A stretch of 47,500 nucleotides of DNA from Bacillota bacterium (GTDB lineage: Bacteria; Bacillota; Sulfobacillia; JAJZYS01; JAJYTV01), in assembly GCA_021793645.1 (NCBI GenBank), contig JAJYSJ010000018.1, positions 1-47,500 on the forward strand, read 5' to 3'. The notes under the pieces were generated by a model that saw only the letters and a program-made list of their open reading frames with translations, was not told the DNA's origin and made no database searches. Both the position numbers and the translations under genes were made by a program. Of this stretch, positions 26,337-35,176 are shown one piece after another (position 1 is the stretch's first letter; each line of letters starts with the position of its first letter).

Positions 26337-28493
26337 ATGCAGCCGCAATTTCGCGAGAAGCGTCTCATCTTCCTCGCCGTCCTTGCCGTGCTCGTACTGG
26401 GGCTGCTGGTCGCACGCCTGGGCTACCTTGAAGTAGTGCAGGGAGCGAAACTGCGCAGTCTGGGCGTTGCCTATCGCGTGCGCGTGATGCCGATCTCGGC
26501 ACCGCGTGGCGAGATCTTTGCAAGCGGCGGGCAGGCGCTCGTTACCAATAAGCCATCCTTTTCAGCAGAATACTTCGACCTTGGCGCACCACCGCCGAAG
26601 GCTGAACTTTCGCAACTTGCTAAGATCCTCGCGCTGACGCCGTCCGCCCTGAAAGCCGTGATCACCGCATACCAGGGGCAGCCCTACATCCCCGTGCGCA
26701 TCAAGGCAGACCTCACGCCGCAGCAGATCACGATGCTCGACGAGCAGAAGCCGACTCTGCCCGGCGTCTTCGTCCAGGCGGAGCCTCTGCGATACTACCC
26801 GCTCGGCACGATCGGGGCGCACGTGCTCGGCTACGTACAGGGCATCAACCTGCAGGAACTCAAGACTTGGAAGGACCCTCGCCTCACCGCCGCTTCGATC
26901 GTCGGGCAGAGCGGGCTCGAACTTAGCTACCAGAAGTACCTCCAGGGCACCAACGGGGGCGAGGAGGTGGAGGTGGACGCGAACAACCGTCCGCTCGTCG
27001 TGCTCGGCACGAAGGCGCCCATCCCTGGCGACAATCTGCATCTCACGCTCTCCAAGGGACTCGAGGTGGAGGCCGCGCGCGCGCTGCAGGCAGACATCAC
27101 CTGGCAGCAGACTGCCCTGAAGCAGGACGCCCGTTCTGGAGCCGTGATCGTGATGGATGTGAAGACGGGCGCCGTCCTCGCGATGACATCGAACCCGTCG
27201 TTCAACCCGAACTGGTTCGCCAAGGGCCTGACGACGGCAGAAGCGAAGCAGGTGCTCAATCCGACGACGAGCCCGATGCTGAACCGGGCGATCGACGCGA
27301 TCTACCCGCCTGGGTCGACGTTCAAGATGGCAACCGCCATCTCGGCGCTGGAGTCTGGCACGATCACCCCGAGCACCATCATCCAAGGGCTTGCGCGCTA
27401 CTGGTACGCACCGTTCCCCTGGAACTGGATTAGGACCTATACGGGGCCGAACTGGCTTGCCAAGGCCATCGGGCAGTCGAACGACGTCTTCTTCTACGAA
27501 GTCGGTCGCCGCACCGGCATCGACACGATCGCCAAGTGGGCGACGCAGCTCGGCTTCGGCAAGCCGACCGGCATCGACCTGCCGGGCGAGAGCTCCGGCT
27601 TTGTGCCGACAAAGGCCAGCTACGAAAAGCAGAACGGCGGGGCATGGTACCCGGGACTCGTCTATTCGGTCGCGATCGGGCAGGGCGAGGACCTTGCGAC
27701 GTTGATCCAACTGGTCGACTACACGGCGTCCGTCGCGGAAAACGGCGTCCGTTACCAGCCCTACCTCGTCCAGACGATCGATTCGCCGTCGGGCAAGGTC
27801 GTCTTCCAGCACAAGCCGACGGTCACTTCCAGGACAACGCTGCCCGCGGCCGACTGGCAGGCGATCCAGAGCGGCATGCAGTGGGCGACGCAGCCCGGCT
27901 CGATCCCTGGGAACGGCGGCACGGCCGGCCCGTTCTTCAGCGGCTTCCCGATGCAGGTCGCGGGCAAGACGGGTACCGCGCAGGTCTCGAACCAGCCGTC
28001 GATCACGTGGTTCGTGTCCTACGGACCGTATAAGGACCCCAAGATCGCGATTGCGGTGGAAGTTGCGGGTGGAGTCGAGGGTGCGTACGCGGCCCCGGTT
28101 GCGCGCGACCTCTACGACTACTACTTCCACCTGAAGGACCCGGGCAACATCCTTGCGCCGCCTGCACCGCCTGCGCCGCCCAAGCCGCAAGGCGGGACGG
28201 GCACAGGCAGCGGCACGGGGAGCAATCCCGGGACAGGGACCGGTACAGCGGGCACAGGGACGACGACCGGTACCACGACAACCACCACAGGGACCGGCGC
28301 AGCCACGGGTACGCCGACCACAAGTACTGGAACGACCGGCACCGGCACAGGCACCGGCACAGGCACCGGCACTGGAACGACCGGCACCGGCACTGGAACG
28401 ACAGGCACCGGCACTGGAACGACCGGCACCGGCACAGGCACCGGCACAGGAACCGGCACTGGAACGACCGGAACCGGCGCAGCCGGGAACTGA
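26337..28493 (+). CDS. mrdA: Penicillin-binding protein 2 (elongasome transpeptidase) with Gly-Thr repeat tail
   Basis: Class B PBP that cross-links peptidoglycan during elongation, partner of RodA. An N-terminal span ([19 protein letters not shown]) is followed by the dimerisation/pedestal domain and the transpeptidase domain: Ser327 in GSTFK, SND in GQSNDVFF, and Lys544 in GKTGTAQ. After [15 protein letters not shown] comes a tail of about 110 residues (about 608-718) made almost only of Gly and Thr. Length is 718 aa, against about 600-700 for the family. ATG 26337 follows GGGGGT. The tail is odd for a PBP2 and lies outside the membrane. Confidence 0.95.
28190..28490 (+). repeat. Degenerate tandem repeats encoding the Gly-Thr tail of PBP2
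   Basis: Short GGCACC/GGCACT/GGCACA hexamers group into units of about 21 nt of the type GGAACGACCGGCACCGGC plus one codon, repeated at least five times between 28329 and 28480. All stay in the PBP2 frame and encode (G-T)n with TT breaks. Repeats of this kind can change length by slippage. Confidence 0.85.
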
Positions 28494-28540
28494 ACGACCA
28501 CAGGGACAGGCCACTGATCGACACGCTGTGTAGGGCACCG

Positions 28541-29026
28541 TTGAAAGCCGTCGCGCGAAAGCCCAGCAAACCGGCAGGAAATGGGCCAAGCCCGCGCGAA
28601 ACGGCTGTGAGACCGGGGGTGACCACCGTTTCGCACGCCGTGTTGAACCGATCGACCGAGGGTGGGAATCGGGAGGCGCTGTACTTGCGTCGAACACTCC
28701 GTTCCGGTCAACGGGTCGCCCATGACGGGAACGTCGTGGTGTTCGGCGACGTGCACGCGGGGGCAGAGATCGTGGCTGCGGGAGACGTGCTTGTCTTCGG
28801 ACACCTGCGCGGGGTCGTTCATGCAGGTGCTGCGGGTGCCGAGACGGCGCGCGTCTGCGCTTGGCGGCTTGAGCCGGTCCAGTTGCGCATCGCCCGCATG
28901 ATCGCGCGCTCGCCGGATCGGGGGGACGAACCGTCCATCGCACCGGAGGTCGCGCGCATCGAGGGCGGACAAGTGGTAATCGAACGTGCGGATAGAGCGG
29001 ATGACGGGAGGGTGCCCCGTGGGTGA
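28541..29026 (+). CDS. minC: Septum-site protein MinC, C-terminal domain only
   Basis: The C-terminal beta-helix of MinC is clear from about residue 50: LRSGQRVAHDGNVVVFGDV, then GAEIVAAGDVLVFGHLRG in pieces, then PVQLRIARMIAR. This part dimerises and binds MinD. The usual N-terminal domain of about 100 residues, which inhibits FtsZ, is absent: PBP2 ends at 28493 and only about 45 non-conserved, Pro/Arg-rich residues precede the helix. Length is 161 aa against about 210-230. TTG 28541 is a best guess (weak AGGG before it). minD overlaps by 8 nt. Confidence 0.85.
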   Translation: MKAVARKPSKPAGNGPSPRETAVRPGVTTVSHAVLNRSTEGGNREALYLRRTLRSGQRVAHDGNVVVFGDVHAGAEIVAAGDVLVFGHLRGVVHAGAAGAETARVCAWRLEPVQLRIARMIARSPDRGDEPSIAPEVARIEGGQVVIERADRADDGRVPRG

Positions 29027-29813
29027 GGTCATCGTCATCACTTCTGGAAAGGGCGGGGTCGGGAAGACCACGACCACAGCGAACCTGGGCACAGCGCTTG
29101 CCCAGTCGGGCAGCCGGGTCTGCCTTGTGGATGCCGATATCGGGCTGCGCAACCTCGACGTTGTGCTGGGCCTGGAGAACCGCATCGTCTACGATCTCGT
29201 CGACGTCGTTGACGGATTCTGCAGGCTGCGTCAAGCGCTGATCCGCGACAAGCGCATCGACACCCTCAGCCTGCTGCCGGCAGCCCAGACGAAGGACAAG
29301 ACCGCCGTGACGCCCGAACAGATGAAAGCACTCACGGACGAGTTGCGTCAGGAGTTCGACTACATCGTGATCGACAGCCCGGCCGGCATCGAGCAGGGCT
29401 TCAAGAACGCCATCGCCGGCGCGGACCGCGCGCTGATCGTTGCGACTCCGGAGGTCGCCTCGGTGCGCGACGCGGACCGGATCATCGGCCTCCTGGAGGC
29501 GGCAGAGATACCGCCGGCGCGGTTGATTGTCAACCGGCTGCGTCCGCAGATGGTCAGGAGAGGCGATATGATGAGTGTCGACGATATCGTCGACATCCTC
29601 GCGATCGACCTGATCGGCGTCGTCCCGGAGGACGAGCAGATCGTCGTGACAACGAACCGCGGCGAGCCCGCCGCGCTGATCCAGGGTTCGCGTGCGGGAG
29701 AGGCGTATCGCAGCATCGCCCGTCGCCTGAAAGGCGAGGATGTACCCTTCATGGACCTCGAAGAGACCTCGGGGTTCCTCGACCGCCTACGCCGAATATT
29801 CGGCCAGGCCTGA
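29019..29813 (+). CDS. minD: Septum-site-determining ATPase MinD
   Basis: ParA-like ATPase that binds the membrane as an ATP dimer and carries MinC. The deviant Walker A is SGKGGVGKTT (about 8-17), with DADIGLRNLD and DSPAGIEQGF following. The C-terminal amphipathic helix (FLDRLRRIFGQA) is the membrane anchor. Length is 264 aa, normal. GTG 29019 lies 6 nt after GGGAGGG and gives the conserved start GEVIVITSGK; the start overlaps minC. Confidence 0.97.
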   Translation: MGEVIVITSGKGGVGKTTTTANLGTALAQSGSRVCLVDADIGLRNLDVVLGLENRIVYDLVDVVDGFCRLRQALIRDKRIDTLSLLPAAQTKDKTAVTPEQMKALTDELRQEFDYIVIDSPAGIEQGFKNAIAGADRALIVATPEVASVRDADRIIGLLEAAEIPPARLIVNRLRPQMVRRGDMMSVDDIVDILAIDLIGVVPEDEQIVVTTNRGEPAALIQGSRAGEAYRSIARRLKGEDVPFMDLEETSGFLDRLRRIFGQA

Positions 29814-31413: not shown

Positions 31414-31523
31414 GGGCTTGCCTCCTAGAGCTCCGCGCAACCAGTCTCGTCCATGCGCCCGGCTTCCATGCAGGCGGAATGGCGGGACAGGCCAGCGCAT
31501 ATGCCTCTTCCGAGGTGTGGCCT

Positions 31524-32057
31524 GTGGGCAAGCTTGCACTGCGCATTGCGGCGGCGGTCCTACTGGCTGGCGGGCTCTTCTGGGCGACGCGCGCATCGGG
31601 TGTTGCGGCCGCCTCCGTGAGGCGGATCCTGCATACCTATATCGCGGCGAACACCCTTTCCAGTGTTGCGCCACCCCGCGCTGTTGGCCAAGCGAACACG
31701 TCAGCCGCGCAGAGGGGGCTCTCGTGGCCGCTGACCGGCGCGATCAGCGAAGCGGCCCAGGACGGCATCAACATCGCGGCCCCGAGCGGGACGCTCGTAC
31801 GGTCGGCATCCGCAGGGCGAGTCGCGTCGTTGGATGCGGACGCGCCCGGCGTCGACATCGTCGTGTCGCAGGGGAGCCTGACGCTCACCTATGGCCACGT
31901 TGGACCGACCTACGTCCACAAGGGCCAGGTCGTGCGCGTCGGCGAGGTGCTCGGCGAGATTCCCCACTTCGGTCCTGGGCTCACGTCGGGACTCCTGTTC
32001 CAGGCGCGCGTCAAGGGGAAGGCGACATCGGCGCTGGCGCTCTTGGGCTCGCCATGA
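31524..32057 (+). CDS. spoIVFA: SpoIVFA-like protein with degenerate M23 domain
   Basis: SpoIVFA tethers and restrains the pro-sigma-K protease SpoIVFB in the outer forespore membrane. One N-terminal span (LALRIAAAVLLAGGLFWA) is followed by an M23/LytM-like beta domain. The catalytic metal ligands look lost: the HxGxD site reads AAQDGINI and the HxH site reads LFQARVKG, as expected for this inactive family. Length is 177 aa. GTG 31524 is 6 nt after GAGGTG; ATG 31479 lacks a site. ATGA overlap with the M50 protease gene supports the assignment. Confidence 0.8.
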   Translation: MGKLALRIAAAVLLAGGLFWATRASGVAAASVRRILHTYIAANTLSSVAPPRAVGQANTSAAQRGLSWPLTGAISEAAQDGINIAAPSGTLVRSASAGRVASLDADAPGVDIVVSQGSLTLTYGHVGPTYVHKGQVVRVGEVLGEIPHFGPGLTSGLLFQARVKGKATSALALLGSP

Positions 32058-32923
32058 CGTGGCGCCTTCCGCGCATCCATCCGCTTCTACTGGCGCTCGT
32101 TGCGCTGGGAGTTGTGATGGGTCGAACGACGGAGATCGGGGTGTATATCGTCTCCCTCCTGCTGCACGAAGCCGCGCATGCGGCCGCGGCGCGCTCCCTC
32201 GGCTACGAGATGGGGCGCGTCGAACTCTATCCCTTCGGCGGACGGGCGGACATCCCGGGCATCGAGCTGCGCGGGCCTCTCGGGGAGATGGTGATCGCGG
32301 CCGCCGGACCGCTCGCGAACCTCGTGGCGCTGGCGGCGGCGACAGCGCTCTGGCGACTCGGTCTGGCGGATGCGCTGCGGGTGCGCATGATCGTCGATGC
32401 GAACCTCGCCATGCTGCTTGTGAACGCCCTTCCGGCCTTTCCGCTCGATGGCGGGAGAGTGCTGCGGGCGGTATCTGCCGCACGGGTTGGCTTCTCGAGG
32501 GCGAGCGAGGCCGCGCTGCAGCTCACGCAATGGATCTGCGTCCTCCTCCTCCCGGCCGCGGCGGTCGTGCAGCTGCTGGGCCTTCCAGGCTGGCAGCTCG
32601 CGGTGCTCTCCTTGGTCCTCTTCTCCGCGCTGCGCCGCGAGACCGCGAGGGTGCCACTTGCACGGTGGACGCTCTGGCTGCGCGGCCAAGAGGATCTGCG
32701 CGGCGGCGGCATCCTGCCGTTGCAGGCGTTTGCGGCGGGGGAGGGTGCGCAGATTCGCCAGGTGCTGCGCCGACTCTTCGGCCGGCGCGCGCACCGCATC
32801 TATGTCTACGACCGCGACCGCATGCTCGGCACGCTCGACGACCATGCGATCTATCGCGCCGCGCAGCGCGGAGAATTGCAGCGCACACTCGGCGAGATCG
32901 TGCGAGAGCGCAACGATGGCTAG
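32054..32923 (+). CDS. spoIVFB: SpoIVFB-like site-2 (M50) membrane metalloprotease
   Basis: Intramembrane zinc protease that processes pro-sigma-K in Bacillus. HEAAH is at 38-42 (ligands His38, His42; base Glu39) and the third ligand Asp132 is in FPLDGGR. About six hydrophobic segments precede a C-terminal CBS-like domain (about 220-285) that in SpoIVFB senses ATP. Length is 289 aa, typical. It overlaps spoIVFA by 4 nt. The sigma-K substrate is inferred from the family and the spoIVFA neighbour. Confidence 0.87.
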   Translation: MTWRLPRIHPLLLALVALGVVMGRTTEIGVYIVSLLLHEAAHAAAARSLGYEMGRVELYPFGGRADIPGIELRGPLGEMVIAAAGPLANLVALAAATALWRLGLADALRVRMIVDANLAMLLVNALPAFPLDGGRVLRAVSAARVGFSRASEAALQLTQWICVLLLPAAAVVQLLGLPGWQLAVLSLVLFSALRRETARVPLARWTLWLRGQEDLRGGGILPLQAFAAGEGAQIRQVLRRLFGRRAHRIYVYDRDRMLGTLDDHAIYRAAQRGELQRTLGEIVRERNDG

Positions 32924-32964
32924 GCACTTTCCTGCAGGGGCATGCTGGACGCGGGGGGATTGCT

Positions 32965-33153
32965 TTGCCGAAACCATGTGCCGCTTGCCTCGGACGGGGC
33001 GTCTGTTCGCAGTGCGAAGGGCGCGGTGTCGTGTCGCCGCCCTGGGGTGACGGGCACCTGTGCGACGGCTGCCACGGCAGCGGCCACTGCTGGGAATGCG
33101 GAGGATCTGGCGTACAGGCGCTTGCCAACCAAGACGACCCTTCTTATACTTGA
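32965..33153 (+). CDS. 62-residue four-CxxC zinc-finger protein (DnaJ central-domain-like)
   Basis: A tiny Cys-rich protein with CAAC, CSQC, CDGC and CWEC, each followed by a G-x-G turn (CLGRG, CEGRG, CHGSG, CGGSG). This is the pattern of the DnaJ zinc-binding domain and of anti-TRAP-like proteins. TTG 32965 has GGGGGG about 6 nt upstream. It lies 41 nt after spoIVFB and carries the rng promoter in its 3' end. Four CxxC motifs would hold two zinc ions. The function is unknown; binding protein or RNA is possible. Confidence 0.7.
   Translation: MPKPCAACLGRGVCSQCEGRGVVSPPWGDGHLCDGCHGSGHCWECGGSGVQALANQDDPSYT
33122..33150 (+). promoter_or_regulatory. Sigma-A promoter before rng
   Basis: TTGCCA (33122-33127), 17 nt, TATACT (33145-33150). 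It sits within the 3' end of the CxxC gene and would start transcription near 33157, leaving a 59-nt leader before rng. Confidence 0.7.
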
Positions 33154-33175
33154 GCCAAACAAGTTTACGGCCTTT

Positions 33176-33198
33176 GCCTTGAGTGAAGGCGGTTTTTT
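33176..33198 (+). terminator. Small hairpin with T6 in the rng leader (possible attenuator)
   Basis: GCCTT (33176-33180) pairs with AAGGC (33186-33190), extendable by TT/GG wobbles, followed by six T (33193-33198). It lies between the rng promoter and the rng start, so it could end the upstream transcript or attenuate rng. Confidence 0.4.
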
Positions 33199-33215
33199 GG
33201 GAGTGAAGACAAGCG

Positions 33216-34949
33216 GTGCGCCGCGAAATATTGGTCAACGTCGAGCCGCTCGAGACACGTGCAGCGATTCTCGAGGATGGCGAACTCGTCGAACTTTTGG
33301 TCGAGCGTCCGATCCATCAGCGCGCGGTCGGCAATATCTTCAAGGGCCGGGTGGAGAACGTCCTTCCGGGGATGGAGGCTGCCTTCGTTGCGATCGGCTT
33401 GGAGAAGAACGCGTTTCTCCACGTCGGCGACGCAGGCGCCCTCTACGACGAAGATGACGGGATCGAGGAACAGCAGCAGCAGCAGCGCCGCAAGTTCGTC
33501 AACATTGACGATGTGGTGCGCTCGAAGCAGGAGATCATGGTGCAGGTCGTCAAGGAGGCGATCGGCACGAAGGGCGCCCGGGTGACGACGAACGTCAGCC
33601 TGCCGGGCCGGTACATCGTGCTCACGCCAATGAACGACTTCATCGGCGTCTCTCGCCGCATTACCGACGAGAAGGAACGCGCCCGCCTGAAGGCCTTCGC
33701 CGAATCGTCAAAGCCGGAAGGCGCCGGCGTGATCGTCCGCACCGTCGCGGAGGGCCGTCCGGAGGCGGAGCTTCAGCAGGACATGGAGTTTCTGAAGCGG
33801 CTGTGGAGCCGCATCCAGAGGCGTGCACAGGTGATGAACGCACCTGCGGTGCTTCATAAGGACATCGGCCTCACCTTTCGCATCGTCCGCGACATGCTCA
33901 CCGATGAGGTAGAGCATGTCTGGATCGACAACAAGGAGGAGTACGAGCGGGTCGTGGAGCTTGCCGACACGATGTCGACGGACTTGCGCCAGCGCATCCG
34001 CCTGTGGCCGAACAAGAGCGCGAGCCTCTTTGACGCGTTCAACCTCGAGCCGGAGATCGAGAAGGCGATACGGCGCAAGGTCTGGCTGCACTGCGGCGGC
34101 TATCTCGTGATCGACCAGACGGAGGCCCTCACGGTCGTCGACGTGAACACCGGCAAGTTCGTCGGCAACCGCAACCTCGCCGAGACGGTCCTGCGGGCGA
34201 ATCTCGAGGCCGCCGAGGAAATCGCGCGCCAGGTGCGCCTGCGGGACCTCGCGGGGATCATCATCGTCGACTTCATCGACATGGACCGTCCCGAGGACCG
34301 GCAAAAGGTGCTGACGACGCTGGAGGAGGCGGTGCGGCACGACCGCACGAAGGTGCACATCCTCGGCCTCACTCAGCTCGGGCTTGTTGAGATGACGCGC
34401 AAGAAGGTCGGGCATGGGCTCGAGGGCATGCTTTTGCGCACCTGCCCCGACTGCGAGGGGCGCGGGCGTGTGCTTTCCGAGGAGACGATGGCGCAGAAGG
34501 TGCGCCGCGACATCCGTGCGCTTCTCCGCAAGGAGCAGGCAGAGGCCGTGCTCGTCGAGGTGAACCCGGCCGTTGCGGCGCTTCTCATCGGCACAGGCGG
34601 CGCGCACCTGCGGGAATTCGAGAAGGAGCTCGGGCGCTCAGTCTATGTGCGCGGCTCGGAGGAGTTGCGCATCGAGACGATGCGCATGCCGGCCATCGGC
34701 TCCCGCGAGGAGGTCGAGCGCCAGGCCCGACCTGTGCAGCCGGGCCAGGAGATCGAACTGCGGATCGAGGAGCAGCACCAGTCCAACCCCGACGACGGCA
34801 TCGCGCGCCTGGAGGGCTACGTCATCGACGTGCAGGGCGCGGGGCGGCTTGTGGGCGAACGGGTCAAGGTGCACGTGACGGGCGCCTTCCGCACCTTTGC
34901 GCGGGCGCGGGTCGTGCGCCAGAAGGGCGAAGTGCCGTCGGCGACCTAA
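33216..34949 (+). CDS. rng: Ribonuclease E/G family protein (RNase G)
   Basis: Endoribonuclease of rRNA maturation and mRNA decay. An N-terminal S1-like domain (GNIFKGRVENVLPGMEAAFV) contains a five-Gln run and an acidic stretch. The catalytic Mg ligands are Asp309 (VVDVNTG) and Asp352 (IIVDFIDM), and the zinc link is Cys410/Cys413 (CPDCEGRG). A C-terminal part (about 500-570) looks like a TRAM-type beta domain (GQEIELRIEE, GYVIDVQGAG), longer than E. coli RNase G. Length is 577 aa. GTG 33216 has only a distant GGGAG. Confidence 0.94.
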   Translation: MRREILVNVEPLETRAAILEDGELVELLVERPIHQRAVGNIFKGRVENVLPGMEAAFVAIGLEKNAFLHVGDAGALYDEDDGIEEQQQQQRRKFVNIDDVVRSKQEIMVQVVKEAIGTKGARVTTNVSLPGRYIVLTPMNDFIGVSRRITDEKERARLKAFAESSKPEGAGVIVRTVAEGRPEAELQQDMEFLKRLWSRIQRRAQVMNAPAVLHKDIGLTFRIVRDMLTDEVEHVWIDNKEEYERVVELADTMSTDLRQRIRLWPNKSASLFDAFNLEPEIEKAIRRKVWLHCGGYLVIDQTEALTVVDVNTGKFVGNRNLAETVLRANLEAAEEIARQVRLRDLAGIIIVDFIDMDRPEDRQKVLTTLEEAVRHDRTKVHILGLTQLGLVEMTRKKVGHGLEGMLLRTCPDCEGRGRVLSEETMAQKVRRDIRALLRKEQAEAVLVEVNPAVAALLIGTGGAHLREFEKELGRSVYVRGSEELRIETMRMPAIGSREEVERQARPVQPGQEIELRIEEQHQSNPDDGIARLEGYVIDVQGAGRLVGERVKVHVTGAFRTFARARVVRQKGEVPSAT

Positions 34950-35095: not shown

Positions 35096-35176
35096 CAACT
35101 TTGTCTGTAAGCCGCTCGCGATCGGTTTCAAGTCGCCCTCGGGCGCACCGGACGCGGCGTGTCTGGAGGGTTTGCG

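Follow-up and report, generated by a model that had tools for sequence, protein, structure and literature searches.

A four-knuckle CxxCxGxG microprotein gene between spoIVFB and rng in a family of Bacillota, with a promoter-like element in its coding tail

Results and Discussion

Location and product of the small gene

The window analysed here is a stretch of 47,500 nucleotides from a Bacillota genome. Between a spoIVFB-like gene and a gene of the RNase E/G family (rng) it contains a short open reading frame whose product, read from the TTG start, is LPKPCAACLGRGVCSQCEGRGVVSPPWGDGHLCDGCHGSGHCWECGGSGVQALANQDDPSYT. The coordinates of the frame and of the features around it are collected in Table 1. 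The four knuckles correspond to residues 5-12, 14-21, 33-40 and 42-49; within each pair the spacer is a single residue, and between the pairs it is 11 residues. The small gene lies 41 nt after the spoIVFB-like gene and 62 nt ahead of the GTG start of rng. A first-pass annotation, made by reading the sequence without database searches, had given the position of the gene, its length of 62 aa and the four CxxCxGxG knuckles, all of them exactly.

Table 1. Features at the spoIVFB-rng junction (positions in the window).
Feature	Position	Strand	Basis or remark
spoIVFA-like M23-domain protein, upstream neighbour	31479..32057	+	Pfam Peptidase_M23 1.1e-10; synteny
spoIVFB-like M50 membrane protease, upstream neighbour	32054..32923	+	Pfam Peptidase_M50 8.8e-14; synteny
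Shine-Dalgarno region of the small gene (GGGGGGA)	32953..32959	+	sequence; GGAGGGAT/GAGGTGAT equivalents in relatives
Gene of the 62-aa four-knuckle protein (CxxCxGxG x4)	32965..33153	+	TTG start, TGA stop
Knuckles 1 and 2 (CAACLGRG-V-CSQCEGRG)	32977..33027	+	translation, alignment, pattern search
Knuckles 3 and 4 (CDGCHGSG-H-CWECGGSG)	33061..33111	+	translation, alignment, pattern search
Sigma-70-type promoter-like site, -35 TTGCCA, 17-nt spacer, -10 TATACT	33122..33150	+	codons 53-62
rng leader	33154..33215	+	near-invariant CAAACAAGTTT at 33156-33166; TTTTGGGAGTGAAGACAAGCG just ahead of GTG
rng (RNase E/G family), GTG start	33216..34949	+	Pfam RNase_E_G 9.2e-107

Several lines of evidence bear on the reality of this gene. 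The good ribosome-binding site noticed at first reading has counterparts throughout: a purine-rich Shine-Dalgarno sequence precedes the gene in 9/9 homologs, in the form GGGGGGAT in the window, GGAGGGAT in the 3 other genomes of the same genus (g1), and GAGGTGATC or a near form in a second genus (g2). The start codon is TTG in the window and ATG, GTG or TTG among relatives; in five g2 genomes the whole open frame comprises only 67 codons, which leaves a margin of just a few codons for the start. The small gene contains two copies of the tandem pattern CxxCxGxGxCxxCxGxG; the rest of the 3.4-Mb genome has none, and the reversed pattern, used as a control, is absent from the genome. At the level of sequence the frame is confirmed as a genuine gene, and a chance ORF is ruled out. 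The gene order spoIVFA-spoIVFB-CxxC-rng is found by tblastn at 9/9 homolog loci, which settles in the positive, inside the family, whether the spoIVFB-CxxC-rng order is kept; the spacing suggests that the small gene is probably co-transcribed with spoIVFA-spoIVFB.

Conservation of the protein

All 8 cysteines, the 8 motif glycines, W27 and D29 are invariant in the nine homologs; a cysteine pattern unconserved in close relatives, the observation named at the outset as contrary to the first reading, is therefore ruled out. For codons 2-51, pN/pS among the pairs listed (11 of 36) ranges overall from 0.07 to 0.62, with values of 0.07-0.21 in g1, 0.27-0.59 in g2 and 0.47-0.62 between genera. The between-genera values understate constraint, because pS is there near saturation (0.57-0.75). 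These data are relevant to the notion that the ORF is a mere spacer, translated but without function, whose conservation reflects only the promoter of rng. Conservation of the tail is indeed at the DNA level, as described below, but within codons 5-49 the cysteines and glycines never change whereas synonymous sites do, and pS reaches 0.31-0.75 in 10 of the 11 listed pairs, the eleventh (L005/L008) consisting of nearly identical sequences. We consider this explanation extremely improbable and already largely refuted.

Distribution and origin

Homologs were recognized in 9 genomes among 61 (own genome and relatives), all belonging to a single family, f1, in which they occur in 4/4 genomes of g1 and 5/6 of g2 (9/10 in total). 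In the remaining g2 genome (G008) the contig begins inside rng, with the match starting from residue 98, and the upstream region is unassembled. A profile search of 154 genomes of the class returned the same 9 homologs and none in the other 144 genomes outside f1. Among 398 genomes of the phylum there were 7 matches, 2 in g1 and 5 weak and partial ones elsewhere, with no rng match at any of these five loci. Close relatives among named records are metagenome assemblies called Bacillota or Clostridia bacterium.

A number of candidate homologs were rejected. Of the five phylum loci outside g1, two (L070 and L071) have a readable knuckle frame, yet they are large unrelated ORFs, which by inspection look ABC-like in L070 and have fibronectin-like repeats in L071; the other three (L069, L072, L073) showed no intact frame of CxxCxGxG type. 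Two matches outside the family, in Victivallis and Prevotellaceae, are knuckle stretches that form part of longer ORFs, and rng was not matched in the stretch examined; pattern matches in G081 and G089 were dismissed as repetitive-looking, the former from its locus, the latter from sequence alone. A phage origin was likewise discarded: a viral scan found no relative, and PHROGs yielded only weak matches, the best (0.00091) to an unnamed family and shared by 4/9 members. Small four-CxxC modules are not unique to f1, as two genomes from another family of the class (G125 and G127; L056 and L057) encode proteins of this size class in which four CxxC motifs include a single tandem pair, CxxCxGxGDCxxCxGxG. 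Among the 154 class genomes, two tight knuckle pairs were seen in f1 alone.

Two genomes from two other families of the same order (G010 and G011) carry spoIVFA- and spoIVFB-like genes upstream of rng, and no CxxCxGxG frame was found at these loci besides the one of rng itself. It follows that an older spoIVFB-rng junction either acquired the small gene or lost it. In the genomes of family f4 there is no spoIVFB match beside rng in the stretch examined. The rng gene of G010 (L022, L025; G010:C6:7079-8772) was matched as two overlapping pieces in different frames, and is therefore either frameshifted or misassembled. A literature search (titles and abstracts in a limited collection) found no paper on the spoIVFB-CxxC-rng locus.

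A promoter-like element in the tail of the gene

The site found in the last ten codons matches the sigma-70-type consensus at 10/12 positions and is the sole one in 501 bases, where shuffled sequences lead us to expect 0.1. Across the nine genomes the -35 element is TTGCCA or TTGTCA (TTGYCA), the -10 element is always TATACT, and there is no indel between them; the rng promoter placed by the first-pass annotation in the 3' end of the gene is thus present as sequence and conserved in 9/9. We also counted, among codons for residues invariant in all nine genomes (W left out), those that are codon-invariant as well: 4/4 in the tail (CTT, CCT, TAT, ACT) vs 4/21 in codons 2-51, for which the exact chance, calculated by hand, is ~0.006. 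In seven genes of the window these four codons account respectively for 14, 9, 39 and 4% of the usage for their residues, and three of the four are therefore uncommon. Identity in 9/9 genomes of codons that are for the most part uncommon indicates that the tail is conserved partly as DNA. It follows that the conserved 'DPSYT' should not be read uncritically as a functional peptide motif, as it may serve in equal measure as a signal in the DNA. The site is the probable promoter of rng, and judging from its sequence it is very likely active as a -35/-10 element in starting rng transcription. The locus offers a clear case of a coding tail whose synonymous sites are frozen by an overlapping promoter-like element.

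Conservation extends to the start of rng. The sequence TTTTGGGAGTGAAGACAAGCG, which has one occurrence in the genome, and codons 1-6 of rng do not differ among the 9/9 genomes save for one base in L009, and these six codons are all codon-invariant (6/6), vs 139 of the 442 amino-acid-invariant codons gene-wide. The whole stretch 33195-33233 (rng leader and first codons) is frozen as DNA, including an ATA codon in GC-rich surroundings. Sites of the RN-WUU type occur in 9/9 genomes at rng +12 and, again in 9/9, close to where the leader begins at its 5' end; this is the core motif of Salmonella RNase E as stated in PMC10989929. That paper also describes the leaders of rne in E. coli and Synechocystis as self-regulated. 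Self-regulation of rng is only a suggestion, and it is possible that the frozen leader and start serve translational or self-cleavage control. As for structure in the leader, hairpin energies are within those of dinucleotide shuffles in 9/9 genomes (z from -1.74 to 0.04), consensus pairs change on both sides in just 1/20, and Rfam gives no match. The near-palindrome CAAACAAGTTTG was discarded as a regulon operator, with 5 near matches in the genome vs 3 for the reversed control. A terminator-like hairpin followed by six T is found at 33170-33190, just after the promoter-like site; it too is no stronger than expected from shuffles, in the window as in the relatives.

Family membership and fold

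The four CxxCxGxG motifs of the DnaJ_CXXCXGXG family (PF00684) are present in 9/9 homologs, all of which give weak matches to this Pfam model (best 0.0034); the score of 16.1 bits is below the curated cut-off of 32.7. The two anti-TRAP models score 15.1 bits vs 65 (NF058604, RtpA, NCBIfam) and 6.7 vs 32 (PF15777), and the protein has four knuckles in 62 aa where anti-TRAP has two in ~53 aa. BSD2_CRD (PF25436) and DUF5351 reach 14.1 and 20.4 bits, respectively, vs a cut-off of 27 for each. With the curated scores missed, membership in the DnaJ or anti-TRAP families was rejected. The sole Pfam model over its curated cut-off is DUF7895 (PF25433; 31.5 bits vs 27), which matches 9/9 members at E up to 1 (best 2.5e-8). 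This match is split in two stretches along the 75-position model, the best covering positions 3-23 only; a genome search with the model gave no match here nor in 14 controls, and the literature search found no paper that names the family. As an identification we regard it as uninformative, lacking a positive control.

Among solved structures, the profile retrieves DNAJA3 (0.01), anti-TRAP (0.015), DnaJ (0.032) and BSD2 (0.94), while a search with the single sequence places anti-TRAP best (0.049). The five AF2 models of a first run had pLDDT values of 81 (pTM 0.58), 50, 40, 40 and 37; in a second run, with a g2 member first, pLDDT was at most 43, so that 1/10 models is confident. With this model Foldseek found DnaJA2 (8.9e-4) and BSD2 (2.2e-3). 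VIA-align Z values were at most 3.2, and UvrA rows, to which we give no weight, were tied with DnaJ rows. The initial impression of a likeness to the DnaJ zinc domain or anti-TRAP therefore stands in part: both rank with its nearest neighbours in sequence and in fold, but the curated cut-offs are missed. On the strength of motif and profile, the protein is most likely a stand-alone zinc module of the DnaJ/BSD2 type. A DnaJ-type fold is a sound guess from the motif and its neighbours, not an established model, and two zinc ions are in all likelihood bound via the eight invariant cysteines.

Comparison with these known systems brings out what is particular to the small protein. The DnaJ cysteine-rich domain, its neighbour in both Foldseek and profile searches, likewise has four CxxCxGxG knuckles, but the small protein is without J domain or substrate-binding domains, and its 1-11-1 residue spacers differ from those of E. 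coli DnaJ, which are about 9-14-6. The genome encodes its own DnaJ-type domain elsewhere. Anti-TRAP/RtpA is also a small stand-alone CXXCXGXG protein, with two knuckles instead of four, and PMC2896485 describes both its motif and its requirement for zinc. BSD2 and ZnJ2 are stand-alone like the small protein, and ZnJ2 also has four CXXCXGXG knuckles, combined with chaperone activity (PMC5818400); unlike the small protein, both are plastid proteins tied to Rubisco. The Foldseek alignment with BSD2 has 38% identity over 56 columns. Finally, residues 410-417 of Rng form a knuckle too, CPDCEGRG, in the place of the RNase E/G Zn-link (CPxCxGxG). The Rng sequence CPDCEGRGRV and knuckle 2, CSQCEGRGVV, are identical at 7/10 positions, a likeness that spans 10 residues only and concerns a common motif. 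In RNase E the Zn-link belongs to the enzyme itself, and in E. coli it holds the oligomer through zinc (PMC12510024 for both).

Possible function

The explanation that best accounts for the locus as a whole, to which we would assign about even chances, is that of a family-restricted zinc microprotein with an embedded rng promoter and a single protein partner. According to this explanation, a four-knuckle module would either have joined the spoIVFB-rng junction or have been kept there, with its last ten codons read twice, as protein tail and as -35/-10 promoter, and rng transcription would start just after the stop codon of the small gene. By analogy with anti-TRAP, DnaJ-CRD and BSD2 modules, the module would act as a compact scaffold held by zinc and bind a single protein; with RNase G as that protein, binding would tune its assembly or zinc loading. 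Of the individual candidates RNase G is the best, though doubtful: its gene is always the next one downstream, and its Zn-link CPxCxGxG resembles knuckle 2. The fact that two other families keep spoIVFA-spoIVFB-rng without the small protein argues against RNase G generally needing it. The neighbourhood is specific to f1, as rng adjoins spoIVFB in those two families in the absence of the small gene. The earlier proposal of RNA or protein binding, drawn from proximity to rng and from resemblance only, is not supported. A more specific version, in which the microprotein serves RNase G alone and shares zinc with it, knuckle 2 mimicking the Zn-link so as to cap or load it and set the oligomeric state, appears quite improbable; if true, it would mean that regulator and target are locked together in double-duty DNA, as the gene ends in the promoter of the RNase.

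Two other roles can be weighed against that of a single-partner scaffold. The protein could act by itself as a holdase or thiol helper, in the manner of ZnJ2/BSD2, working on RNase G, SpoIVFB or general clients, and not a specific RNase regulator. The nearest folds to the predicted model, DnaJA2 and BSD2, and the chaperone activity of four-knuckle ZnJ2 (PMC5818400) are consistent with such a role, but the fixed place beside one locus in 9/9 genomes suggests a specific function and BSD2_CRD falls short of its cut-off; we hold this role to be possible, if doubtful. Alternatively, the protein could be an accessory of sporulation or of the membrane protease, acting with SpoIVFA/SpoIVFB, with which it would be co-transcribed, the nearness of rng being incidental. 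A scan of 32800-33300 shows no promoter-like site ahead of the small gene, which follows spoIVFB on the same strand, and these two observations imply that it should share the spoIVFB transcript. Two relatives, however, have spoIVFA and spoIVFB beside rng with no small gene there, and no membrane segment is apparent by eye in the small protein, so that we deem an accessory role rather unlikely.

The small protein is a predicted zinc microprotein specific to one lineage, its four knuckles unusually tightly spaced and its gene fixed beside that of a key ribonuclease; if it does regulate RNase G, it would add a new type of control over RNase E/G in Bacillota. It appears from its sequence to be a new variant among stand-alone DnaJ-type zinc proteins.

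Other features of the window

Further along the window, the Rfam family L21_leader (RF00559) is matched ahead of rplU at 35099-35174, with 37.2 bits vs a cut-off of 36. On the minus strand, an ORF at 28121-29185 translates into a long Val-Pro repeat, the DNA being repetitive just upstream of a minD-like gene. An identical 12-mer is found at 38-49 of the window and at G000:C14:34-45, near the ends of two contigs, and may represent a common repeat at assembly breaks.
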